64,000 nucleotides of DNA, taken from the NCBI GenBank assembly GCA_902780525.1, contig CACZFL010000002.1:1-64000 (forward strand). The letters are read 5' to 3'. The number at the start of each line of letters is the position of its first letter. Position 1 is the first letter of the stretch. This DNA is from an uncultured bacterium (GTDB lineage Bacteria > Cyanobacteriota > Vampirovibrionia > Gastranaerophilales > Gastranaerophilaceae). Below are positions 3,110 to 61,289 of this stretch, piece by piece. Position numbers and translations under genes: made by a program. The notes below the pieces were generated by a model. The model was given only the letters and a program-made list of their open reading frames with translations, was not told the origin of the DNA and did not search any database.

Positions 3110-3595
3110 TTAAATTTCATCTAATATTTGTTCAAATTTTTCCGACCATTTTGGATTTATATAATACAAAATATCATTCACGATAAACAGCGGATAAAGA
3201 GCTGCTAAGCCCGCAAAACTTTTTATGTCTTCTTTTATTTGCCGTTTTTTATTATTTTCCCACTCTTTTTGTTCTTTGTCATATAAAACTTTTTCATACA
3301 TATCTAAAGCATCTTGTGCCGCACTGATATATTTGGATGCTTTTGATGTAATCGGTACATTTACCTGTGCAATGCCGTCCTTGTTATTTTCAAACGGATA
3401 AAAACTATCGCATGTCATTTTTACATTATTATTACCGTAATCTTGCTCTAAATATAGATTCCAGTCTTTTGGCCGGATTAATTTCTCCAGCTCTGCAGAA
3501 GTTTTTGCAATATTTTGTTTCGGCTTGTTACTATATTTCCCTAAAACAACAAGTTTACCTTGAAAGTTGGTTATATCTGCCCGTTCGGTCTTCAT
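3110..3595 (-). CDS. F-x-G-motif protein of unknown function (161 aa)
   Basis: No known family recognised. The N-terminus carries NFQG at residues 10-13, the motif shared by nine proteins in this window; here it continues KLVVLG. The next gene downstream in coordinates has GFNGKLVIE at the same place, so the two are probably divergent paralogs. The middle is hydrophilic, with helical, Lys/Glu-rich sequence near 95-125. A mildly hydrophobic stretch (FAGLAALYPLFIV) follows near 126-138. The start is supported by SD CAGGAG. It is probably co-transcribed with the 117-aa gene that precedes it on the minus strand (19-base gap). Confidence 0.7.
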   Translation of the reverse strand: MKTERADITNFQGKLVVLGKYSNKPKQNIAKTSAELEKLIRPKDWNLYLEQDYGNNNVKMTCDSFYPFENNKDGIAQVNVPITSKASKYISAAQDALDMYEKVLYDKEQKEWENNKKRQIKEDIKSFAGLAALYPLFIVNDILYYINPKWSEKFEQILDEI

Positions 3596-7233: not shown

Positions 7234-7608
7234 TTATGCGTATCTTCCAATTTTGTATGTTTCTTCTAAGGATTCAACTTTCAGCAAAACTTTATGTATA
7301 AAATTGCGTGGTTTAAAGTTAAGAAGATTTTTTAGCCAGCCTTCTTCTATGTATGTAAAATTTTCATCCTTTGCACACGGATGTTTGTATGTTATCATAG
7401 CATCTAATCTGTCAAAAGGTTTGCTGTCTGCTAGGCCTAATGTTGTTTCAACAGGACTTTTTTTCAATATGCTGAAAAAGGAATCAACCTCTTCTTGCGG
7501 CAGCTTTTTGTATAAAATTTCTTTTACTTCTTTTTCAACCGAAGCATTGTATTTTGTGTGAAACTTTAAACCCTGAAAATTTATTTGATAATTGTTATTT
7601 ACTTTCAT
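7234..7608 (-). CDS. F-x-G-motif protein (124 aa), tandem paralog 1
   Basis: Unknown function. It starts MKVNNNYQ and has NFQG at residues 10-13. The C-terminal half aligns with the next gene on the minus strand: LDAMI-Y, then F-YIEEG-L, LN and a final F--K pattern (here LDAMITY, FTYIEEGWLKNLLN). The two are therefore tandem duplicates that kept a core domain while their N-terminal linkers diverged. No signal peptide or membrane helix. SD AAGGAG supports the start. It lies in a run of three F-x-G genes with 14-22-base gaps, suggesting one operon. Confidence 0.75.
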   Translation of the reverse strand: MKVNNNYQINFQGLKFHTKYNASVEKEVKEILYKKLPQEEVDSFFSILKKSPVETTLGLADSKPFDRLDAMITYKHPCAKDENFTYIEEGWLKNLLNFKPRNFIHKVLLKVESLEETYKIGRYA

Positions 7609-7630: not shown

Positions 7631-7987
7631 TTAAATATGTCCCTTTAAGCCGATAGAAACTACATCTTTATCTATTTGTCTGTTAATTTTGTTCATAAAA
7701 ACTTTTGGATTTAACATACTGCTTAAGATACCTTCTTCTATATAGCGAAAATGATTTTTACCGTATTCAATCATTGCATCAAGACCATTCTTTAAACCTA
7801 CGCCTGCACCTAAAATAATATTGTATTCAGAATCGTCATGTCTTGTTTTAAATCTTTCTACGAATTTTTGGTACTGCTCCTTCGGAAGTCTTGAACGGAG
7901 AATTTTTAGTGCTGCCGGATCAATTCTTCCTGCTTTGAAGCTTGTTTGATAATTATGGTAATTGTTATAATTATTGTTTATTTGCAT
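7631..7987 (-). CDS. F-x-G-motif protein (118 aa), tandem paralog 2
   Basis: Unknown function. The N-terminus is Asn/Tyr-rich and flexible-looking (MQINNNYNNYHN), with SFKA at 16-19. The core LDAMIEYGKNHFRYIEEGIL pairs with the same region of the neighbouring 124-aa protein. A Gly-rich loop (ILGAGVGLKNG) near 57-67 is specific to this copy. SD AAGGAG is well placed. The gene sits between its paralog and the 118-aa protein ending at 8002. Confidence 0.75.
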   Translation of the reverse strand: MQINNNYNNYHNYQTSFKAGRIDPAALKILRSRLPKEQYQKFVERFKTRHDDSEYNIILGAGVGLKNGLDAMIEYGKNHFRYIEEGILSSMLNPKVFMNKINRQIDKDVVSIGLKGHI

Positions 7988-8001: not shown

Positions 8002-8358
8002 CTATGCTTTTTTACCCAAAATCAATCGTTCTTGTTCATCAAGAGTTTTACAAAGTTTTTTAAAAAACTTTTCTGAACGGTTAAAGACACTCGTAAAGAT
8101 TGTTTCTTCTTCATACGATTTTGTCATTAGCACACCGGCAGCCGGTTTTTTTTGCTTGAATGTTGCACACAAACGAATACTTTCTTCGGATATTGTATCA
8201 ATAACTATATCCAATGGAGATTTTTTATATTTATTTATCATACTTTCCTGTATGGAAATAAACTTCCCGGAAGGCATTTTTTCGCTCATTGCAGCCAATG
8301 CTCTTGGTGAAAAAGTTACCGCTTTAAAGTTTAGATTTGAAGAGTTGGTTACTTGCAT
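8002..8358 (-). CDS. F-x-G-motif protein of unknown function (118 aa)
   Basis: The start is set at MQVTNSS by a clear SD (TAGGAG) 11 bases upstream; a longer in-frame reading adds 18 residues without an SD. NFKA is at residues 10-13. The body is helical and basic at the C-terminus (KFFKKLCKTLDEQERL). It is not obviously homologous to the two neighbouring F-x-G proteins beyond the N-terminus, although the idea of a family with a long central helix cannot be excluded. It is probably first in a three-gene operon on the minus strand. Confidence 0.72.
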   Translation of the reverse strand: MQVTNSSNLNFKAVTFSPRALAAMSEKMPSGKFISIQESMINKYKKSPLDIVIDTISEESIRLCATFKQKKPAAGVLMTKSYEEETIFTSVFNRSEKFFKKLCKTLDEQERLILGKKA

Positions 8359-8413
8359 ATATATAAAACTCCTATGTTCTGCATAAACACTGTCAAGATT
8401 TATTTTTGCCATG

Positions 8414-14554: not shown

Positions 14555-16858
14555 ATTTTCCGTTTGCGGTTTTTCGATCGGTCGTCTAAATGAACAGACT
14601 CTGTTTGAGCAAACCTCAAATTCGCCGTTCTTTGTTATTTTTTTTAACAAAAGTTCACCACATTCAGGACACGTATTGCCTGTTGGTTCATCCCAGAGTG
14701 CGTATGAACAATCAGGATAACGGTTGCACCCAAAGAATATTTTACCGTGCTTCGATTTTTTTTCAATAATAGTTCCGTCTCCGCACTTAGGGCACTTAAC
14801 CCCTGTTGAGCGGACATATTTTTTGCGATTGCCACATTCTTTGCACTCATAATATTTGCCGTACGGACCTGTTTTCAGACTCATTTGTCCGCCGCATTTG
14901 TCACATTTTTCATCAGCAATAACTTCTGTTCCCGAGCCTTCTGTGTTCTCTTCATCACTGGTGCTGTCAAGCTCATTCATATTATTTAATGAAATAATTG
15001 TTTTACATTCTGGATAACCTGAGCAGCCAAGGAATTGTGTTCCGAAACGGCTTGTTTTGACAAGCATTACACGTCCGCAATTCGGACATTTTTTGTCACT
15101 TTCAATGGTAACTTTTTTAGCCCCTTTCATTACGGATTGAACAACTTCCATAAATGGAGTATAAAACTCTTGTAAAACAACATTCCAGACGGCTTTCTTT
15201 TCAGCAATCAGGTCGAGTTTTTCCTCCATGCCTGCAGTAAATTTGTAATCCATAATATTTGAAAACTGTTCTACAAGCTGCTTGCATACTGTTCTTCCCA
15301 AAAGTGTCGGAATAAGAGCTTTGTCTTTCTTTTCGACGTATTTTCTTGTCTGAATAACGGTAATAATTGTTGCATAAGTTGACGGACGACCGATACCGTG
15401 TTCTTCAAGAGCTTTTACCAATGATGCTTCGTTGTATCTCGGAGGCGGCTGAGTAAAGTGTTGTTTTGGTGTTACTTCTTTGCAAACAACTTTATCACCT
15501 TCATTAAGATCAGGAATCTTTGCTTCTTTTTCCTGCTCTTCCTCTTCTGCATCGTTGTATAACTTTAAGAAACCGTCAAATACAACCTTGCTTGTTCCGG
15601 CTTTAAGATTATAATCGCCTGCTTTGATATCAATTGTCTTGTTGGCTATGGTTGCAGCCTGCATCTCAGAAGACATAAACTTTTCCCAGATAAGTTTATA
15701 TAATCTGTACTGGTCATTATCCAAATACGGCTTAAGACTTTCCGGAGTTCTGTTCGGATAAGAAGGTCTTATAGCTTCGTGTGCATCCTGAACATTTTGT
15801 TTGCCTTTTACATAAATATTTGTTTTTTCGGGATAATATTCTTTTCCGTAGTTATTTAAGATAAAATCTTTAGCTGCTGCGTGCGCATCATCTGAAATAC
15901 GAACACTGTCAGTTCTCATATAAGTAATCAATCCGACAGGAGTTCCGTCGATTTCCATACCTTCATAAAGTTTTTGTGCTACCTGCATTGTTTTTTGTAC
16001 ACCGAAACCGAGTTTTGTACTTGCGGCTCTTTGCAGGGTTGAAGTTATAAAAGGTGCCGTCGGTTTGCGTTTTGTTTCTTTTTTTGTAACTTTTTCAACA
16101 ATACATTCTGTTTGTGGATTAAGAAGAACCTCTTTTATTTTTGTTGCGGCTTCTTCATTGTTTATATCAAATTTCTTCCCTTTATACTTATTAACTTCTG
16201 CCTCAAAGAGCTTTCCGTCTTTATCCATTATTGTGTGGATTGACCAGTATTCTTTCGGAACGAATGCTTCAATCTCTTCTTCTCTTTCACAAATCATACG
16301 TAGAGCAACAGACTGAACACGACCTGCTGAGAGGTGATAATTACCCAATTGTTTCCAGAGAACGGGCGACAATTTATAACCAACAAGTTTATCAAGAATT
16401 TGTCTTGTCTGTTGAGCTTTAACCCTGTCCATATCAATTTCTCTTGAATGTTCAACAGCGTATTTAACAGCCTTTGGAGTGATTTCGTTAAACTCGATTC
16501 TCTGAACCTTATTATCTTCTACCGGCAACAATTCTCTGACGTGCCACGCAATAGCTTCTCCCTCACGGTCAGGGTCTGATGCAAGCAGAACTCTGTCAGA
16601 GCGTTTTGCAAGCTCACTCAGTTTTGTAACAACTTTTTTCTTATCCGGAATAATTACATAAGTCGGCTTAAATCCGTTATGCACATCAAAACCCAGAATA
16701 TTATCAGGCAGGTTTCTTACATGACCGAAACTTGCTTCAATTTGGTACCCGTCTCCCAATATCTTTTTAATAGTCTTAGATTTTGCAGGTGACTCGACTA
16801 TTACCAAAACTTTTTCTTTTTTCGATTTTTCTTGTTTTTCTGTAACCGCTGCCGTCAT
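14540..16858 (-). CDS. topA: DNA topoisomerase I
   Basis: Relaxes negative supercoils by a 5'-phosphotyrosine intermediate (type IA). The 772-aa protein has a TOPRIM domain (VIVESPAKSKTI near 20; SDPDREGEAIAW near 95) and the active-site Tyr in GLITYMRTDSVR (near 318). Four C-terminal four-cysteine zinc ribbons follow (CPNCG near 601, CDKCG near 660, CPKCG near 690, CPECG near 737). A short charged N-terminal extension (TEKQEKSKKEK) precedes the core. It lies two bases after dprA, the usual dprA-topA order, and is translated from the same operon. Confidence 0.97.
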   Translation of the reverse strand: MTAAVTEKQEKSKKEKVLVIVESPAKSKTIKKILGDGYQIEASFGHVRNLPDNILGFDVHNGFKPTYVIIPDKKKVVTKLSELAKRSDRVLLASDPDREGEAIAWHVRELLPVEDNKVQRIEFNEITPKAVKYAVEHSREIDMDRVKAQQTRQILDKLVGYKLSPVLWKQLGNYHLSAGRVQSVALRMICEREEEIEAFVPKEYWSIHTIMDKDGKLFEAEVNKYKGKKFDINNEEAATKIKEVLLNPQTECIVEKVTKKETKRKPTAPFITSTLQRAASTKLGFGVQKTMQVAQKLYEGMEIDGTPVGLITYMRTDSVRISDDAHAAAKDFILNNYGKEYYPEKTNIYVKGKQNVQDAHEAIRPSYPNRTPESLKPYLDNDQYRLYKLIWEKFMSSEMQAATIANKTIDIKAGDYNLKAGTSKVVFDGFLKLYNDAEEEEQEKEAKIPDLNEGDKVVCKEVTPKQHFTQPPPRYNEASLVKALEEHGIGRPSTYATIITVIQTRKYVEKKDKALIPTLLGRTVCKQLVEQFSNIMDYKFTAGMEEKLDLIAEKKAVWNVVLQEFYTPFMEVVQSVMKGAKKVTIESDKKCPNCGRVMLVKTSRFGTQFLGCSGYPECKTIISLNNMNELDSTSDEENTEGSGTEVIADEKCDKCGGQMSLKTGPYGKYYECKECGNRKKYVRSTGVKCPKCGDGTIIEKKSKHGKIFFGCNRYPDCSYALWDEPTGNTCPECGELLLKKITKNGEFEVCSNRVCSFRRPIEKPQTENNQES

Positions 16859-16860
16859 TC

Positions 16861-17967
16861 TTATTTACTTAATCCTTTATACCTGTCTCCGTCTGTTTGT
16901 TCAATAAAACCTTCGAGTTCCATAATAGTCAGGGTTTTTAAAAGTTCATCAGTATTCATGCCTGTTTTTGCTTGAATTTCATCAAAACCCAAAGGTTCAA
17001 TTCTTATTATATCAGAAATTATTTTATATACATGATTTTGTTCCAAATCAGGATTGTTTGTACATTTTAAAGGTGCTGAACTTTCTTTTATTATTTGCCA
17101 GTTAAGTGTGTTCAAAACATCTTCCCCTGAAGTTACCATTGTTGCTCCATTTTTAAGTAGCTTATAAACACCTTCCGTATTTTTATTATTAATTGAACCC
17201 GGAATACACATCAGCTCTCTGCCCTGTTCCAGGGTTAAATTTGCAGATATTAAAGCTCCGCTTTTAAGTGCAGCTTCCCCGACAACCGTTCCGTAAGAAA
17301 GTCCCGTAACTATTCTGTTCCTTTGAGGGAATCTGAATTTTATCGGTTCAAACGTCGGGTAATATTCAGTAACAACAGCACCGTACCCGCGTTCAAGTTT
17401 GTCGTACAAATCTTTGTTTGAAGCAGGGTATTTATAATCAAAACCGCTTGCAATTACACCTATTGTTTTAAGGTTATTTTCAATAGCAGCCCTGTGAGAA
17501 GCCGCATCTATGCCTTCTGCAAGACCTGACACGATACAAATATCAGTATTTCTGAAATCGCTGATAATTTTTCTTATACTGTCTTTACCATTTGTACTGG
17601 CTCTTCTTGAACCGACAAATGCAACGGTTCTTTCTAAATTACAGGAAAACAAATCCCCTTTATAATAAAGAACCATCGGAGGGTTATAAATTTCTCTCAG
17701 CATCTTTGGATAACGTTCATCATCAAACGTTATAACTTTTATCCCTCTTCTTTCGACTTCTTCCATTGTTTTCTCAATGTTTACTTTGTCACGCAGCCGC
17801 AAAAAAGTTTCGGCTTTCTTTATATTTACCCCTTCAATTTCTGTCAGGTCTTTTCTTGAACAATCAAAAGCACGTTCAATGTCACCGAAATACTCATAAA
17901 TATTACGGACAAATGCAGAATCAATTTGCTCTATGGAAGAAAGTCCAATCCAAAACTTCTGTTTCAT
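16861..17967 (-). CDS. dprA: DNA-processing protein DprA
   Basis: Loads RecA on incoming single-stranded DNA during natural transformation. The 368-aa protein has an N-terminal SAM/HhH-like region (LTEIEGVNIKKAETFL near 41-56), the Rossmann core with VAFVGSRRAS near 118, VSGLAEGIDAASHRAA near 149, GSGF-type IASGFDYKYP near 177, FRFPQRNRIVTGLS near 213 and EAALKSGALISANL near 235, and a C-terminal winged-helix domain (about 305-365). It is intact. With the pilus genes at 30.3-36.2 kb it could belong to a DNA-uptake system, but comEC/comEA are not in the window. Confidence 0.95.
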   Translation of the reverse strand: MKQKFWIGLSSIEQIDSAFVRNIYEYFGDIERAFDCSRKDLTEIEGVNIKKAETFLRLRDKVNIEKTMEEVERRGIKVITFDDERYPKMLREIYNPPMVLYYKGDLFSCNLERTVAFVGSRRASTNGKDSIRKIISDFRNTDICIVSGLAEGIDAASHRAAIENNLKTIGVIASGFDYKYPASNKDLYDKLERGYGAVVTEYYPTFEPIKFRFPQRNRIVTGLSYGTVVGEAALKSGALISANLTLEQGRELMCIPGSINNKNTEGVYKLLKNGATMVTSGEDVLNTLNWQIIKESSAPLKCTNNPDLEQNHVYKIISDIIRIEPLGFDEIQAKTGMNTDELLKTLTIMELEGFIEQTDGDRYKGLSK

Positions 17968-23594: not shown

Positions 23595-23618
23595 GCAAAT
23601 AATTTATAAAAACAAGTT

Positions 23619-23648
23619 TTGGCTGTAAGGAAGAAACCTTACAGCCAA
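23619..23648 (+). terminator. Rho-independent terminator after clpB
   Basis: A perfect 12-bp stem (23619-23630/23637-23648) with loop AAGAAA lies 25 bases beyond the clpB stop. The following sequence is A/T-rich rather than a pure T-run. Confidence 0.65.
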
Positions 23649-23845
23649 ATTTAATTTATAATCAGACAGAAATTCCTGCTCTGGTTAAAACGTTGTATGA
23701 TTTTTTTGTTTTTGATAAAATAAGTTCGTGTGGAGTGTATGGATGTTGATAATAACTTTGTAACAAAATGTTAAAATCATGCTTTTTCACTAGCAAAAAT
23801 TTTTATTTACATGATTTCTATTAGTAAGTACCATATGGGGTTTGT

Positions 23846-24919
23846 ATGATAAAAGAAGTAAACTTATCAGATAAAATTATAAGCTTCAGGCAAAATGAAA
23901 TCACCAAAAAGCCCGACAAACATGATGAGTCTGAAATCGTTCCGAATACCTTAAAAACAAGGGTATTACAGAAATATGACAAGACTCTGAATGCTATTAC
24001 AGAATACCCCGTCAAAGGTCTGAAAGGTGATGTTAATTCTGATTTTTACGAATTTTTATCAATGGGAATTATTCCATACATTGTCGGCAGCGGTATGTTT
24101 ATGGCAATGTTTAACCTAATCAATAAACACCTTACTCCCAAAGCTTCTCTCAGAGGTAAAAAAATGGGATTGGGTGTTATTTTTTACGGTATAGGAAAGA
24201 CCCTGTCCAATGATTTTGTAACAAGACCTGTAAAATGGGGAACAGGGGTTGATATAGAACTGCCTTACAGGAATATATATTGCACACTTCCTACAAAACC
24301 CGGTGCAGATGCTGAAATTGATCACAAACATCAGCAAAGAAAAGTTTATGACAGTATAGAATTCTTCAGAAAAGATTTAATCGCAAAAGACCCTAAATAT
24401 GGCGTAAAATACTATGACGAAATTGCAAAAAAACTCGGAATGGGAGAGAACTTAAACGATTCAGTAACAGAAACAACCCCTATCATACAAAGCATTGTTG
24501 CATCGACAAAAACTGCTAAAAGTTTATCTTCATACTGCTGGGCAGCAGTCGGAGTTTGCATTGCAGTTCAGGACTGCTGGGCAGAATTCTTTAAGGCATT
24601 CTCTGACAGACCTAAATATATTACCAAAAACGGAGAAAGCTTCTTCTCAAAAGTCGGTGGTAAACTCGCAAACACAGCTAAAAATGCCTTAAATTTATCC
24701 CAAACTTTTGTAAAAACCTTAGGCAAGGCATGCAAAACCCTATCTCTGGGAGAAGAAGGCTCCAGAGGCTTTAAAAAACACTGGGGTAAGGCTTGGTTAC
24801 TCTTTACCCTTGCACTGACCATCGGTTCAACATACAACGTAATCCACAGAGCAAAACAAATGGGAAAACTCGCAAACAAAGATTTGATTAATAAAAATCA
24901 GGAAAGTACGGTGATTTAA
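23846..24919 (+). CDS. Membrane protein of unknown function (357 aa), operon gene 1
   Basis: I do not recognise this protein. The first 60 residues are soluble and charged, followed by hydrophobic segments near 73-93 (SMGIIPYIVGSGMFMAMFNL), 108-122, 228-248 (SYCWAAVGVCIAVQDCW) and 312-330 (AWLLFTLALTIGSTYNVI). The loop at 125-215 contains charged sequence and DKH/HQQ residues. The ATG follows a GGGG-containing leader. The next gene begins one base after its stop, so it is first in a three-gene operon ending with a GH13 glycosidase. It lies after the clpB terminator with its own 200-base upstream region. Confidence 0.72.
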   Translation: MIKEVNLSDKIISFRQNEITKKPDKHDESEIVPNTLKTRVLQKYDKTLNAITEYPVKGLKGDVNSDFYEFLSMGIIPYIVGSGMFMAMFNLINKHLTPKASLRGKKMGLGVIFYGIGKTLSNDFVTRPVKWGTGVDIELPYRNIYCTLPTKPGADAEIDHKHQQRKVYDSIEFFRKDLIAKDPKYGVKYYDEIAKKLGMGENLNDSVTETTPIIQSIVASTKTAKSLSSYCWAAVGVCIAVQDCWAEFFKAFSDRPKYITKNGESFFSKVGGKLANTAKNALNLSQTFVKTLGKACKTLSLGEEGSRGFKKHWGKAWLLFTLALTIGSTYNVIHRAKQMGKLANKDLINKNQESTVI

Positions 24920-24920
24920 G

Positions 24921-27479
24921 ATGGCTATAACTCCTGTACAACCGAATATCAAACATAATACAACTTATAGGGATGCTAAAAAACCTATTAAGACAACAAA
25001 CCTTGTTCATCCGCAAATCGCACAAGGACATCTTGTTCATGATTCTTTGCTTGCCATTCCCAAATTTTGGTGCAAAGATATCGCTTACGATCTGAAAGCC
25101 GTAAAAGACGGTTTCAGCGGAAAAGCTAAAGACCATCAGACAGGACGATTAAATGATGTCGGATTAAAACTGGGCGGTATCGGAATTGCTACATATTTGG
25201 CAACTCAAACATCTGACCCTAAAATGAGAGTTATGGAATATGTAGGCTTAGGAACGTTCCTTGCCTGCATGTCATTATATCCGATGATAGCAATAAACAC
25301 TCCGTCAAGACTGGTTCAGGGATATGATATCGGCAAAAAATACATTGACGATCAGGGACGCAAGAAATCAGTATTTCAGGATGGTAACTACATTCCATAT
25401 GATATGTACAGAGGCGAGTATGATGGCGAAAATCTTGATATCATCGGCGACAGAATGGGAATTCCGCGCAACATCAAGAATCGTCATGAGCTTATCAAAG
25501 AACAAATGAGAAAAATTGCAATCCAGAATAACACATTATGGATGCTAGGCGCAGGTTTTGCAACACCGGTTATGACTGCTCTTATGTGCAGCGGTTTAGA
25601 GCATGTGCTTTCTCCTGTTCTGGAAAAATTCCGAAACGGCAGAGCAAACTCCAAAATAAGCGATTTGCTTGAAAAAACACAACAAATGACGCTTAATGTT
25701 GATGAAATTATTAATAACGGTCTGAACAAAAAAGTTGAAAAGCTTTTAAAAGAATACAAAGACAAAGAACTTCCGAAAGAAAAATTTGAAGAACTTGTAA
25801 GAATGTTATCAAAAGAAACAGATGACAATCTTACAAAAGGTATAACTGAAGACCTCGATAAATTATTTAAAAGCGAAAAAAATGCTTTTGTTCTCGGAAA
25901 TGATTTCATCGATGAAGTCAACAAAGTTATCGATTCTGCCTCTAACGGAAGAAACAGCGAAACTTTTGCAGATATCTTTAAACCTTCACGTGTCGAACTG
26001 GAGGACACTATTGCAAAAACAGGTTCTGACGGTAAATATATAAATGCTGAGCAGCTGGATAAATTAAAAACAGAGCTGAAAAATATTTTTGAAAGAAAAA
26101 TAGAAGCAAGTTCCGGAAATAAAGAATTCCTCCGTATGCAGGAATATACGATTATAGATAATATCTCAAAACTTATCCAAAAAACACCTTCATCTTTTGT
26201 AAGCAAAAAAAGCATGAAAGAGGTTATAAATTTTGCAAGAGTTCTTGGCGAATTCAAAGCAAATAACAGAGCATTAGACAGGTGCAAGTCCGTCAAAGTT
26301 GAACACTCTCCCGAAACAATGCTTGCACGTTCATACAAAAAATTTGAAAATGCATTGTTTAGTGCACTTGATATAAAATTCGGCGAACTTAAGCAAATGA
26401 AAGAATCAGAAGCTTTCACAAAAGAGATTATTGAAAAGAAAATTCAGGCACTTGTAAGCAATGAAGCAAAATACAAAAAAACAGTTGCAAAATTAGCAAA
26501 AATTATGGCAACTACAGAGGTAAGGCTTCACGGAAAATCTGCAACCGAATCACACATAAAGAATTTGATTTCCGCTTATGAAAATAATTATAACAATACC
26601 GCAAAAAGAATAAATAATATAAGCAACAGCCATTTTACCAACACAATCAACAGACTTATCAAAGAAGATATCAACAATAACCTTGAAAACACAGTAAAAT
26701 CAAGAGAAGATTTGTTTGATATCATTGACGGACTGAAAGAACCTTTTAAAGCAACCGTGACAGAAAATGAAAATTACGGAGAAAACAAAATGCAGTGTGC
26801 CCGTGAATACTCAAAAGGGGTCGGTTCTTCAAAACGTATGTCAATATCACGTATTATTGACAGAATACAGGGCGTTGAGAACAGCCAGCGTCGTATGCTT
26901 CACGCTCTTGATGTATTTAAACGTGAGATTCCGAAAGATGAATACGGCAAACATCTGAACGCAGCACTAAAAGACATTCTTTTACAGGCAACATCTGCTG
27001 ACCATACCCTTAAATTAAATACAGAAAACAACCCGAAATACTATCAGGATTTAATGGCTGAAGGCTGGACAAAAGCTCTTAATGATACTACAAAAAAATC
27101 AATTCAGTCAGCCGGAGATGTAACAAAGGGTAGTGTATATGAAAGATTTGTAAAATACATCGAAAGATTCAGAAATATAATGGGGCAAAATAACATTGAC
27201 TTCAAAAAACCGGGTCACAGATTTGGCAAAGAGATAAAGAATTTCTACGGACCTGATTCAATTACCCTTATGCAGAAGTTTAACCTTGTTGCACAAAATC
27301 CGATAGATTTCTTTAAAAAGGCTGCAAAAACAAGATTTGAAAATCAGAAATGGTTGAGAATTGCATCAGGAATTGGCGGAGTAGTTATTGGTGCAACTGT
27401 TTTGGCACAATTCAGCTTCGGCAAGATTAAAAATCCCCACAACATACAAAAGCAGGTGAATGATGATACTATCAGTTAA
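24921..27479 (+). CDS. Large membrane-anchored coiled-coil protein of unknown function (852 aa), operon gene 2
   Basis: Not recognised. Short hydrophobic segments near 79-93, 104-123 and 208-224 suggest an N-terminal membrane domain. A very long hydrophilic, Lys/Glu/Asn-rich helical region (about 240-800) follows, with coiled-coil-like stretches such as NGLNKKVEKLLKEYKDKEL (near 268). A last hydrophobic segment near 820-836 (ASGIGGVVIGATVLAQF) precedes the end. A big soluble body held between membrane segments at both ends suggests a scaffold. It starts one base after gene 1 and overlaps gene 3 by 20 bases, so the three products are very likely made together. Confidence 0.75.
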   Translation: MAITPVQPNIKHNTTYRDAKKPIKTTNLVHPQIAQGHLVHDSLLAIPKFWCKDIAYDLKAVKDGFSGKAKDHQTGRLNDVGLKLGGIGIATYLATQTSDPKMRVMEYVGLGTFLACMSLYPMIAINTPSRLVQGYDIGKKYIDDQGRKKSVFQDGNYIPYDMYRGEYDGENLDIIGDRMGIPRNIKNRHELIKEQMRKIAIQNNTLWMLGAGFATPVMTALMCSGLEHVLSPVLEKFRNGRANSKISDLLEKTQQMTLNVDEIINNGLNKKVEKLLKEYKDKELPKEKFEELVRMLSKETDDNLTKGITEDLDKLFKSEKNAFVLGNDFIDEVNKVIDSASNGRNSETFADIFKPSRVELEDTIAKTGSDGKYINAEQLDKLKTELKNIFERKIEASSGNKEFLRMQEYTIIDNISKLIQKTPSSFVSKKSMKEVINFARVLGEFKANNRALDRCKSVKVEHSPETMLARSYKKFENALFSALDIKFGELKQMKESEAFTKEIIEKKIQALVSNEAKYKKTVAKLAKIMATTEVRLHGKSATESHIKNLISAYENNYNNTAKRINNISNSHFTNTINRLIKEDINNNLENTVKSREDLFDIIDGLKEPFKATVTENENYGENKMQCAREYSKGVGSSKRMSISRIIDRIQGVENSQRRMLHALDVFKREIPKDEYGKHLNAALKDILLQATSADHTLKLNTENNPKYYQDLMAEGWTKALNDTTKKSIQSAGDVTKGSVYERFVKYIERFRNIMGQNNIDFKKPGHRFGKEIKNFYGPDSITLMQKFNLVAQNPIDFFKKAAKTRFENQKWLRIASGIGGVVIGATVLAQFSFGKIKNPHNIQKQVNDDTIS

Positions 27480-29217
27480 CAGAACAGGTTTTAACAGAAT
27501 AACTAATTATACGGCATTCCATGGTGAATACCATACTTCTCCTGTCAAAAACGAAACAAAAGACAACAAGGTTTCTGAAAAGTACCTCGATAATCTTGCT
27601 ATGATTAACGCACCTGCCGTAAAAAAAGTTGATAACAAAAAAGCAGAAAATAAACCTTACAAGAATAATCTTCGCTCAATGATACAAAATAATGAATCAG
27701 TTATGCTGGCAATCGTTCCGAGAATTTTTAATGCAAAAGATTTGAACGGTGATGACAGAATATCAATAAAAAGCGGCGAACAGGTAGGAACATTTTTAAA
27801 CGCAATCGACAGACTCGACGAGCTGAAAGCTGACGGATTTAATACTATACACGTACTTCCTATCCACCCTACCGGCAAGAAAAATGCTATGGGAACAGCA
27901 GGCTCTCTGTATTCACCGTTAAAATTTATTGAAGATAACGGAGATTTAGCTATTGACCCGATGCTAATTGAACCGAATGACCCGAGAACTCCAAAAGAAC
28001 AGTTTAAAGCATTTATTGATGAATGTCATAAACGCAATATTAAAGTTATGCTTGACTTACCAAGCTGTGCATCGGTTGAACTTTTTGAAAACGAACCGGA
28101 GCTTATGGCATTTGGCAGAAACGGTGAAGATAAAACTCCTCAGGGCTGGGAAGATATCAGAATGTTTGAGCCCTGGGCAGATATTACAAAAAGGACTCTG
28201 AACCCCGCTTTATACGAAATGCACAGACAATACGTTGATGCTTGTATAGATTTGGGTATTGACGGAATAAGAGCAGACGTTGCACGTGCGAAACCGACAG
28301 AGTTTTGGGATAAATTAATAACATATTCTCATACAAAAGACCCTGAATTTGGTTGGCTTGCAGAAAGCTATACGTATGAGTGTGCGTCTCCTATGATAAA
28401 TATGCCCTTCGACAGACCCGAAGATTTATTAAATGCAGGTTTTGACGAATATTACGGGCAATATCACATTTTCCACGACTGGAGAAGTGCAACTGAGTTT
28501 AATGATTATATAAAATCTAACCTTGATATGTCTCACAGACTTCCGGCAGGAAAATCAGTAATCGGTTCTTTTCTGACACACGATGATGTTTCATCAATGT
28601 TACACGGCGGAGAGAACTTCTGTAAAATGACAACTGTTCTCCAATCTACAATCCCGATGTGCAATCCGTATTTTGTAGATGGTTTCCAGACAGGTGATTA
28701 TTATGATTACAAGTACAGAGATACAATCGATCCTGAAACACGCACTGACAGAAAAGAATCAAATGAACACCGTTTCCACCTTGCAATTTTCAACCTGGCA
28801 AGAAAACCAGGAGGAGAACATCCTGATATAGAACGTGTAATTCAGGGCTGTGCAAAAATGAGAGCGGAAAATCTGGATGTTTTGGCTGATCCTCATTCAA
28901 GCTTCATAGAGCTGGACAAAAGAGAAGATATGAATGACCAGATTATTACTTTCGCAAGACATAACAATGGCAGAACAATCCTGGTTGTCGCAAACAAAAA
29001 TCCGAACAGAAATGTAACAGGAATAATTGAGATTCCGGGGCTTAAGAAAGAACAAAAACTTGTAAATATGGTTCCTGAATACGGTGAAAAAAGTACATTC
29101 CAGACCGGGGACAACGAATTAAAGGTAAACCTTGCACCTGCCGATGCGTACGTGTTTGAAATAGATACACCATATCTTGAATCAGACAGAAAAGAACACG
29201 CTTACAGACAAAAATAA
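27460..29217 (+). CDS. GH13-family (alpha-amylase-like) glycosidase with N-terminal F-x-G motif
   Basis: A 585-aa TIM-barrel enzyme acting on alpha-glucans. The probable nucleophile is Asp273 (IRADVA), the acid/base Glu302 (WLAES) and the stabilising Asp375 (FLTHDD). The region-I motif, normally D-x-V-x-NH, reads DLPSCA near 199, so the Asn/His pair is missing. The C-terminal beta domain runs from about 470. There is no Sec signal; instead residues 1-22 carry the AFHG motif (19-22) found on the small F-x-G proteins, followed by a Lys/Asn-rich linker to about residue 70. It overlaps gene 2 by 20 bases. Specificity (hydrolase or transglycosylase) is open. Confidence 0.88.
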   Translation: MMILSVNRTGFNRITNYTAFHGEYHTSPVKNETKDNKVSEKYLDNLAMINAPAVKKVDNKKAENKPYKNNLRSMIQNNESVMLAIVPRIFNAKDLNGDDRISIKSGEQVGTFLNAIDRLDELKADGFNTIHVLPIHPTGKKNAMGTAGSLYSPLKFIEDNGDLAIDPMLIEPNDPRTPKEQFKAFIDECHKRNIKVMLDLPSCASVELFENEPELMAFGRNGEDKTPQGWEDIRMFEPWADITKRTLNPALYEMHRQYVDACIDLGIDGIRADVARAKPTEFWDKLITYSHTKDPEFGWLAESYTYECASPMINMPFDRPEDLLNAGFDEYYGQYHIFHDWRSATEFNDYIKSNLDMSHRLPAGKSVIGSFLTHDDVSSMLHGGENFCKMTTVLQSTIPMCNPYFVDGFQTGDYYDYKYRDTIDPETRTDRKESNEHRFHLAIFNLARKPGGEHPDIERVIQGCAKMRAENLDVLADPHSSFIELDKREDMNDQIITFARHNNGRTILVVANKNPNRNVTGIIEIPGLKKEQKLVNMVPEYGEKSTFQTGDNELKVNLAPADAYVFEIDTPYLESDRKEHAYRQK

Positions 29218-29233
29218 ATATTGTAATACAAGT

Positions 29234-30046
29234 TTAGTCAATGTAGCATTTAGGGTCTTCTCCGGTAACACCGGCATAAAGTTCCAGGAATTGTTTTGAA
29301 GGACTCATATTTATTTTTGTGATTAAAACTTCTTCTATCTGGAAAAACCCTACTTCTGCAGACATTTCAATATCAATTCGGATCGGCTTCTTTTCACCTC
29401 TGTGAATACTTATTCTGTCGATTGCATTTGCAGAATATTTATGAATATCTCCGACTTTTGGAGTTGTGTTGATTGCAAGAGGAATTTTTGCTCTGCCTTT
29501 AGTCATATCGCAACCGTCAGCGATAAGAATAATACCCGCTTCAATAGAATGGATTCTTCTTGAAGCCATATGTCCTATAATAGCTTCTATAGCAACAGAT
29601 TTTATGACGGTTCTCCGATGTAAATCATCAGGGAAAATATGCATAACTGCTCTTTCCAAAATTGGTTTAGCCAGTGTGACAGACATTTGCTCATGACCTT
29701 CACGGCCTATCATCATACCCAAATCATGCATAAGCCCTGCAAGAATAACAGCACACATACTGTCTTCAAAACAGCCTATTTCTTCTGCTTCTAGTGATGT
29801 TTTAATACCACTCTCGTGTATAATATTGAGCATTTTAATAGCATTTGCCGTTACCTGACGCATATGAACAGGACCGTGGTCATTGTACCCCAGACGTTTT
29901 ATTGAAACATTGTTTGCATAATCCTGCATTTCCTGTAATTCTGCATCATTAAAAAGATAATTTACAAGCTCCAGGCACTTGGGGTGATTCTGCAAACGTT
30001 TCAAAATTTTTGATTCTATTGAAACTTCTTTTACCGACTTCATCAT
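29234..30046 (-). CDS. HD-domain phosphohydrolase (270 aa)
   Basis: An HD-superfamily metal-dependent phosphohydrolase. The ligand set is visible: YNDHGPVHMRQV (near 54-65), the central HD in AGLMHDLGM (near 103-111), a GHE/GHM pair (REGHEQMS near 115, EAIIGHMASRR near 154) and LIADGCDM near 176. The C-terminal 70 residues are an added alpha/beta domain (KPIRIDIEMSAEVGFF). HD proteins act on nucleotides or cyclic dinucleotides; the substrate is not predictable here. It is convergent with the GH13 gene (16-base gap) and divergent from the pilus operon, with a leaderless-type promoter. Confidence 0.85.
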   Translation of the reverse strand: MMKSVKEVSIESKILKRLQNHPKCLELVNYLFNDAELQEMQDYANNVSIKRLGYNDHGPVHMRQVTANAIKMLNIIHESGIKTSLEAEEIGCFEDSMCAVILAGLMHDLGMMIGREGHEQMSVTLAKPILERAVMHIFPDDLHRRTVIKSVAIEAIIGHMASRRIHSIEAGIILIADGCDMTKGRAKIPLAINTTPKVGDIHKYSANAIDRISIHRGEKKPIRIDIEMSAEVGFFQIEEVLITKINMSPSKQFLELYAGVTGEDPKCYID

Positions 30047-59828: not shown

Positions 59829-61289
59829 ATGAAATTTAATAAGAAACAAATTATAAGTTTAGCAATATTATCCTGTTTTGTATTAACTTCTGTTGATACG
59901 GTTCAGGCTTTTTCCTGGGGTAAATCTAAGAAAAATAACAACACTCAGGCTGTAACATTAACTAAAACAAAAACAAAAAAGAAAAATAATACAGAAGAAA
60001 AACCGCCATATACAAACGAGGTTCATTCCGTATTTTCACTTAACGACTGTGTAGAAAATGCAATTAAATACAATCCAGGAATTCAAGCTTCAATATATAA
60101 TGAAGAAGCATACAAAACAAGAATCGGACAAGCCTGGGCAAATTATTTTCCGACAATAAGTGCAGGTCTGGATGTTTCAAGAAGCGGCAATAAATACGTT
60201 GGCGGAAGTCCATACGGCGGTACAGGTGGAAACCAATACTTGACAATGGGTTATATTCCTTCCGTTTCAGCTGATATGCTTATTTTCGATTTCGGAAAAA
60301 CAAAAGCTTCTGCAGACATGGCAAAGAGAATGTATGAGTCTACAAAAGAAGATACAAAAGAGAATATCAATACAATTATCTATAGTATAAAATACACATA
60401 TTATAACATCTTGTTTGCGCAGGCACAGGTTCATGTGTATGAAGATACGGTTGCTGATTACCAGCTTCAGTTAGACCAAGCATGGGGTTTCTACCGTTAC
60501 GGAACAAAACCGAAAGTTGATGTTGTAACAGCTGAATACAACCTCGGAAAAGCAAGACTGAACTTAGTCAAAGCAAAGAACGTTCTTGAAGTTGCAAAAG
60601 TTCAGTTATCTCAGATTATGGGTATTCCTGAATACACAAACTATGAACTTTCCGACCAGCTTACGCTTAACCTTTTTGATATAACAGAAGAGAATGCTAT
60701 TAATACAGCTTTTGAAGTAAGACCGGAACTTATTTCTGCTGAAAAGATGGCTGAAGCGGCTAAAATGAATCTTAGAGCTGCAAGAAGAGATTTCACACCT
60801 AATTTGGGCATATACGGAAGCTACAATAACGGTATCGGAAATGAATACAATTTACAGTCAGGACAAGTCGGTGTAGGACTTACTTATAACGCATTTAATA
60901 TTTTGAGAATCAAAAAGCAAGTAGATCAGGCTAAAGCAGAATACAAAAGAGCCAAAGCAGAATATGAAGATACTAAACACAATGTCTATTTCAACGTCAA
61001 GAAAAACTATATGGAGCTTGAAACAAACAGAGAAGCCATCATAATTGCAAAGCTTGCATTAGACCAGGCAAAAGAACAATACAGACAGGTAACAGGAAGA
61101 TATAAAGCAGGCGTCGGTAATGCTATCGAACTTAAAGACGGTGAAAATACATACTTAAACGCTCGTCTTGATTTTTATAACGCAATGCTTAACTATAACA
61201 ACACTGCAGCAAGTCTTGAAAAAGAAATCGGCTTACCTCTGAAACTCAAACCTGAAAAAGTTTTGAATATTACAAAAGATGACCTATAG
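59829..61289 (+). CDS. TolC-family outer-membrane efflux protein
   Basis: The outer-membrane channel of the pump. The start MKFNKKQII is chosen because it has an SD-like AAGAAGAG; an ATG five codons upstream is possible. A signal peptide (about 1-27, ending VQA) is followed by a Lys/Asn-rich stretch. Two tandem OEP halves follow: SLNDCVENAIKYNPGIQAS (near 70), a beta segment with ISAGLDVSRSGN, and coiled-coil helices, then FEVRPELISAEKMAEAAKMNLRAARRDF (near 293) and ELKDGENTYLNARLDF (near 433). A -10-like TATAAT upstream could give it an additional promoter. Confidence 0.93.
   Translation: MKFNKKQIISLAILSCFVLTSVDTVQAFSWGKSKKNNNTQAVTLTKTKTKKKNNTEEKPPYTNEVHSVFSLNDCVENAIKYNPGIQASIYNEEAYKTRIGQAWANYFPTISAGLDVSRSGNKYVGGSPYGGTGGNQYLTMGYIPSVSADMLIFDFGKTKASADMAKRMYESTKEDTKENINTIIYSIKYTYYNILFAQAQVHVYEDTVADYQLQLDQAWGFYRYGTKPKVDVVTAEYNLGKARLNLVKAKNVLEVAKVQLSQIMGIPEYTNYELSDQLTLNLFDITEENAINTAFEVRPELISAEKMAEAAKMNLRAARRDFTPNLGIYGSYNNGIGNEYNLQSGQVGVGLTYNAFNILRIKKQVDQAKAEYKRAKAEYEDTKHNVYFNVKKNYMELETNREAIIIAKLALDQAKEQYRQVTGRYKAGVGNAIELKDGENTYLNARLDFYNAMLNYNNTAASLEKEIGLPLKLKPEKVLNITKDDL

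Follow-up and report, generated by a model that had tools for sequence, protein, structure and literature searches.

A conserved three-gene unit of Gastranaerophilales encoding two predicted membrane proteins and a GH13 enzyme

Layout and conservation of the gene unit

The window, i.e. the whole stretch of 64,000 nucleotides that was analysed, harbours three closely packed genes on its forward strand, which are bounded upstream by a terminator-like stem and downstream by a convergent gene (29234-30046, minus strand). The elements of the locus are as follows:

23618-23649, plus strand: terminator-like stem of 13 bp between clpB and gene 1, the upstream boundary of the unit
23846-24919, plus strand: gene 1, 357 aa, with ISFRQ, a motif of the I-x-F-x-[AGSQN] type, in a disordered N-terminal leader
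24921-27479, plus strand: gene 2, 852 aa
27460-29217, plus strand: gene 3, 585 aa, a GH13 enzyme without a signal peptide; start at 27460 or 27463

A single nucleotide lies between genes 1 and 2, and genes 2 and 3 overlap by 20 nt when counted from the first of the two tandem ATGs with which gene 3 begins, just behind an AGGTG. The coordinates, lengths, 1-base gap and 20-base overlap given in an earlier, sequence-only reading of this DNA were thus all confirmed. The tight packing is not due to chance, since a gap of +1 nt between genes 1 and 2 recurs in 47 of 71 relatives, and an overlap of 17 nt between genes 2 and 3, matching the second ATG of gene 3, in 42 of 70.

Of 57 relatives, 49 were found to contain gene 2. 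On contigs of sufficient length, five families of Gastranaerophilales (f1, f3, f4, f6 and f7) show the three genes in the same order; in a sixth (f5, genome G037) gene 3 directly adjoins gene 2, and gene 1 is found on a separate contig, most likely owing to an assembly break, because gene 2 is located at the contig end. The sequence-only reading had proposed that the genes form a unit, a proposal that was to fall if the neighbourhood were conserved in no relative; across Gastranaerophilales, the gene order is conserved. In addition, a survey for relatives of gene 2, with one genome per GTDB species, yielded 347 stretches, of which 79, from named genomes, were fetched. Every intact locus among these 79 contains all three genes in the same order, and the named records with the unit include Candidatus Gastranaerophilales and Melainabacteria MAGs.

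The profile of gene 1 matched each of the 130 genomes sampled from the window's family, Gastranaerophilaceae, and one further member of the order, with no match in the sampled genomes outside Gastranaerophilales. The unit is universal among the genomes sampled from this family, of patchy occurrence in the other families of the order and not detected in the rest of the phylum. The three genes adjoin one another in the same order in all 27 genomes examined for this, which represent 25 genera of the window's family. Meanwhile, no flanking gene family is found in more than 22 of the 94 loci; the flanks vary while the three-gene order persists, and it is therefore the unit, rather than its neighbourhood, that is conserved.

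Co-occurrence was examined with three profiles in 17 genomes: seven seemingly devoid of gene 2, six from outside the order and four positives. As this sample was chosen by gene 2 status, it bears on whether genes 1 and 3 accompany gene 2, and not on the frequency of the unit. Twelve of the 13 presumed negatives carry none of the three genes; the thirteenth (G049, a 66% complete MAG) contains gene 3 along with the 3' end of gene 2. The 99% complete genome G045 lacks all three genes, all of which are present in its congener G053, a contrast which suggests loss as a unit.

One must bear in mind that neighbours in a bacterial operon need not bind each other, and that a short lineage-specific operon can persist through co-regulation alone. 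Genes 1 and 2 might accordingly have a role in the envelope, gene 3 being merely co-transcribed with them and its product physically unrelated to theirs. This explanation seems rather unlikely, however, given that the arrangement of the genes, including their spacing, has been retained in at least five families amid changing surroundings, and that the genomes tested nearly always have either all three genes or none of them.

Two predicted membrane proteins with a common domain

The hydropathy of the products of genes 1 and 2 is modest. When averaged over each family, it reveals four membrane-like segments in either protein, near residues 71, 107, 223 and 316 of gene 1 and near residues 77, 107, 208 and 815 of gene 2; application of the positive-inside rule to the charge pattern of both proteins gave no clear topology. 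Both products are probably located in the membrane. Profile-profile comparison and structure prediction led to the delineation of the following parts:

23918-24547, plus strand: domain of gene 1 common to gene 2 (residues 25-234), from profile-profile comparison
25014-25565, plus strand: domain of gene 2 homologous to gene 1 (residues 32-215), from profile-profile comparison
25608-27290, plus strand: predicted all-helical body of gene 2 (residues 230-790), from the AlphaFold2 model, block pLDDT mostly 80-96
27300-27410, plus strand: predicted C-terminal membrane-like helix of gene 2 (residues 794-830), from the AlphaFold2 model and hydropathy

The AlphaFold2 model of gene 1 was built from 67 sequences (pLDDT 78.7, pTM 0.72) and that of gene 2 from 63 (pLDDT 83.8, pTM 0.73). 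In agreement with the sequence-only reading, which had described gene 2 as having membrane segments at both ends and a long helical body, three of its membrane-like segments are N-terminal and one is C-terminal, and the helical body is supported by the model. The same reading, however, called gene 2 a scaffold and missed that its N-terminal domain is paralogous to gene 1, which means that the two proteins are not unrelated.

The comparison of the wide alignments of the two families (A1 versus A2) by hhalign resulted in a probability of 96.4% (E 1.3e-9), which rose to 97.1% (E 5.9e-11) when only the domain of either gene was used; the reversed control gave 0.8% and ten column-shuffled controls gave at most 3.1%. 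The homology was not seen between the narrower alignments (A4 versus A5, 2.3%), and the claim of paralogy thus rests on the wider set, which passed the controls. The first three hydrophobic segments are similarly placed in the two proteins (71/107/223 and 77/107/208), and both AlphaFold2 models exhibit the same order of elements, namely two long helices, a beta hairpin, two short helices and a long helix. Moreover, in genome G048 the HMMs of gene 1 and gene 2 each weakly match the other gene (E 0.001 and 0.08). Judged from these comparisons, gene 1 is an ancient paralogue of the N-terminal domain of gene 2, and the two genes would represent a duplicated pair whose products probably form a heteromer.

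The kinship is further supported by G037 (contig C23, locus L198, 1324-3219), whose gene 1 product, at 631 aa, resembles that of gene 2 in possessing a long body and a hydrophobic helix at its C-terminus; it is possibly a picture of the ancestral form before the paralogues diverged. The C-terminus of gene 1 (window positions 24902-24916) reads ESTVI and is near-constant in close relatives; other short tails are found in other genera.

No Pfam family was matched above the cut-off by genes 1 and 2, either as single proteins or with all 44 orthologues of each, and the searches against NCBIfam, PHROGs and PADLOC returned nothing above threshold, only isolated sub-threshold or single-member matches. 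Neither protein has a relative among PDB sequences, gene 2 giving chance helical matches only. In comparisons of the models with the PDB, the best Foldseek E-values were 0.047 for gene 1 and 0.16 for gene 2, and the Z values obtained with VIA-align, at most 5.4 for gene 1 and at most 7.8 over 92 residues for gene 2, whose N-terminal domain was barely covered by the comparison, fall short of what would indicate kinship between helical models. Fold matches to BAR-like proteins, XPR1 and PAL were discarded, as they rest on common helical arrangements. No further copies of genes 1 or 2 were found in the window's genome at E<=1, and no earlier description of the three-gene unit turned up in the literature searched. 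The statement of the sequence-only reading that no known family has such a layout is in accordance with these results; a match of genes 1 and 2 to a well-characterised family of another role, which would have counted against that reading, was not found. Judged against Pfam, NCBIfam, PHROGs, PADLOC and the PDB, the two families of predicted membrane proteins and their arrangement have no convincing counterpart.

The GH13 enzyme, its exported twin and its leader

The profile built from 44 orthologues of gene 3 is closest to PDB entries 4gkl, 1gju and 3dhu and to GlgE, with E-values down to 1.6e-25. PF00128 was detected at E<=0.001 in 40 of the 44 orthologues; the window's gene 3 taken alone scores below the cut-off of this family (16.9 versus 22 bits). 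Four conserved regions of GH13 enzymes were located in gene 3:

28054-28068, plus strand: region I, D-L-P-S-C (D199-C203), replacing D-x-x-x-N-H
28276-28278, plus strand: catalytic nucleophile D273 in region II, GIRADVARAKP, invariant in 44/44
28363-28365, plus strand: catalytic acid/base E302 in region III, WLAES, invariant in 44/44
28582-28584, plus strand: transition-state stabiliser D375 in region IV, FLTHDD, invariant in 44/44

R271 and H374 are likewise invariant in the 44 orthologues. The assignment of gene 3 to GH13 is based on the homology of the catalytic domain and on the Asp/Glu/Asp of regions II, III and IV, and the invariance of the catalytic residues indicates that the enzyme is very probably active. 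The Asn-His pair of region I, which is typical of GH13 members though not required for membership, is replaced by PSC in 44 of 44 orthologues; region I reads D-x-P-S-C throughout, with D199, P201, S202 and C203 invariant in all 44. In the alignments with PDB sequences the pair is kept by 4gkl and 3dhu, whereas GlgE and the maltosyltransferase of Thermotoga maritima lack it. Both of the latter are transferases, and a transglycosylase is hence preferred over a hydrolase as the probable activity of gene 3, although the loss of the region-I histidine alone is no proof of transferase activity.

A link to glycogen was considered and rejected. A match to GT5 (glycogen synthase) was obtained in 20 of 20 genomes, with or without the unit (in two f7 genomes that carry the unit it was weak only), and the presence of phosphorylase was likewise uninformative on that of the unit. 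As the unit tracks neither of them, its substrate need not be ordinary glycogen, and the unit does not simply belong to ordinary glycogen metabolism.

Past the C-terminal domain of GH13, gene 3 continues into a tail (window positions 29155-29214) of the form FEI[DN]TPxIE...[VA][YF][KR]Q, which is conserved across families of the order and is a candidate docking peptide.

As was stated in the sequence-only reading, gene 3 has no Sec signal: a Sec-like hydrophobic leader was found in 0 of 44 orthologues. The window's genome (G000) additionally encodes a GH13 twin of 512 aa (contig C17, 1884-3422; locus L081), which is 38% identical to gene 3, possesses a Sec signal peptide and is not adjoined by genes 1 and 2. 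Such a twin was found in 27 of the 27 genomes of the window's family that were tested. Of the 14 twins read out for their leader, 13 show a strongly hydrophobic one and the fourteenth is borderline, and region I reads D-[LI]-P-S-C in 11 of 15. In four genomes of other families with a match to gene 3, no twin was detected at E<=1e-20. Set against the exported twin, the lack of leaders in gene 3 orthologues makes a cytosolic location of gene 3 most likely.

The co-occurrence of exported and cytosolic twins in all 27 family genomes would also be in line with the uptake of alpha-glucan or maltodextrin, in which genes 1 and 2 would constitute a transporter or its subunits, the twin would trim the substrate outside and gene 3 would process the entering product; two homologous membrane proteins could indeed make a heterodimeric pore. 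Nevertheless, uptake is considered unlikely, as no transporter family or fold was matched, the unit contains no ATPase, and the unit also occurs in other families of the order, in which no twin was detected. The sequence-only reading itself had suggested a glucan-processing or export unit. The export of glucan, or the assembly of a capsule at the membrane, would account for membrane proteins adjoining a glucan enzyme, and in mycobacteria glucan made inside the cell is exported via an unknown route (PMC11046441). However, the unit harbours no export ATPase, channel or outer-membrane component, its neighbours are not conserved, and nothing tested points to a capsule. Since, moreover, nothing transporter-like was found, gene 3 itself seems to be cytosolic and an exported twin is encoded separately, the suggestion of export is not supported and is regarded as very improbable.

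The F-x-G motif attributed to gene 3 in the sequence-only reading is present in its N-terminal leader:

27511-27525, plus strand: F-x-G leader motif TAFHG of gene 3 (residues 18-22)

A similar motif occurs within residues 5-30 of 34 of the 44 gene 3 orthologues, compared with 9 for the reversed motif. Given that F-x-[GA] leaders were found on several proteins of the window's genome (14 of 406 ORFs versus 3 for the reversed motif) and that orthologues of both gene 1 and gene 3 carry them, genes 1 and 2 might form a sorting machine that recognises or carries proteins with polar, Asn-rich F-x-G leaders, gene 3 being one client. The excess over the reversed motif is modest, however, and the matches include false positives such as UvrA. 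In gene 2 the motif is mostly absent, the unit-bearing genome G038 shows no such leader in 91 ORFs, and similar leaders are present in G034, a member of the order without the unit, so that F-x-G leaders are no peculiarity of the unit and are treated here as an observation of their own. Sorting by genes 1 and 2 thus appears very improbable. As an export signal specific to the unit, the leader was rejected on account of its occurrence in a unit-less genome and its modest excess.

The leaders are polar and Asn-rich, end in F-x-[GA] and are found on small proteins, membrane proteins and enzymes; they may represent a sorting or docking signal of Gastranaerophilales. ORFs with such leaders are located in the window at 3110-3595, 7234-7608, 7631-7987 and 8002-8412 (all minus strand). 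Elsewhere in the same genome they lie on contig C1 at 27145-28719 (minus), 87215-88885 (plus) and 118320-119549 (minus), on C2 at 68481-68930 (minus) and 124076-125473 (plus), on C4 at 16046-16576 (plus) and 60192-60770 (minus), and on C17 at 17120-17512 (plus). The first of the C1 ORFs (27145-28719; locus L168, 7145-8719) carries the F-x-G leader SFRGD and no Sec signal, and is presumably 5'-nucleotidase-like, as named from its motifs YVNDLHGQ...GGDNDIGD...GNHEMD; relatives of this kind are usually exported.

A possible membrane platform and its relation to known systems

The reading preferred here, held tentatively and at somewhat short of an even chance, is that of a heteromeric membrane platform which holds a cytosolic alpha-glucan transglycosylase, the product of gene 3. 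The three gene products would make up one membrane-associated complex, in which those of genes 1 and 2, with their common N-terminal membrane domain, most likely form an inner-membrane heteromer and the helical body of gene 2 may serve as an arm or dock. The active GH13 enzyme would stay in the cytosol, held at this platform, and would remodel alpha-1,4-glucan or maltodextrin by the transfer of glycosyl, perhaps maltosyl, units rather than by simple hydrolysis. In the window's family, the exported twin would act on the opposite side of the membrane. A membrane-associated role in glucan processing, as such, is plausible in view of the intact GH13 active site of gene 3. The fuller picture of an undescribed membrane machine, in which two paralogues with no recognised fold dock and control an alpha-glucan transglycosylase at the cytosolic face and which works with the exported twin as a core trait of the family, is more doubtful.

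Gastranaerophilales are widespread animal-gut relatives of cyanobacteria for which, to our knowledge, almost no experimental biology exists. A unit that no sampled genome of one family lacks offers a rare way into the cell biology of these bacteria; gene 3, with its clear active site, is directly assayable and may serve as bait for the two proteins without known relatives. Should the complex prove real, alpha-glucan metabolism would be coupled to the bacterial membrane in a new way.

Among known systems, GlgE (GH13_3), an enzyme with maltose-1-phosphate as donor, resembles gene 3 in its GH13 barrel (profile E about 1e-13), in the absence of the region-I Asn-His and in a common P-I-H-P-x-G stretch. 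It differs, however, in that its PDB chains comprise 663-723 residues with a longer N-terminal part, and the GLGE_C profile remains under its cut-off on gene 3 (15.7 versus 27 bits). Furthermore, GlgE of mycobacteria is co-transcribed with the branching enzyme GlgB (PMC11046441), whereas the partners of gene 3 are two predicted membrane proteins. The T. maritima maltosyltransferase (PDB 1gju) is similar to gene 3 in profile (E 1.1e-19), in the start of the domain and in lacking the region-I Asn-His, but the best matched stretch spans only part of the barrel. We know of no membrane partners of this enzyme. The best PDB match of gene 3 is 4gkl (E 1.6e-25), listed in the PDB as 'Alpha-amylase' and taken here to be AmyB of Thermotoga neapolitana; unlike gene 3, which has PSC, it retains the region-I Asn-His. 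Pairing of a GH13-like protein with a membrane protein is known from the heteromeric amino-acid transporters, in which rBAT or 4F2hc is combined with LAT. The GH13-like part of rBAT and 4F2hc is membrane-anchored, extracellular and inactive; gene 3, in contrast, is a soluble and probably cytosolic protein in which no catalytic residue is missing.
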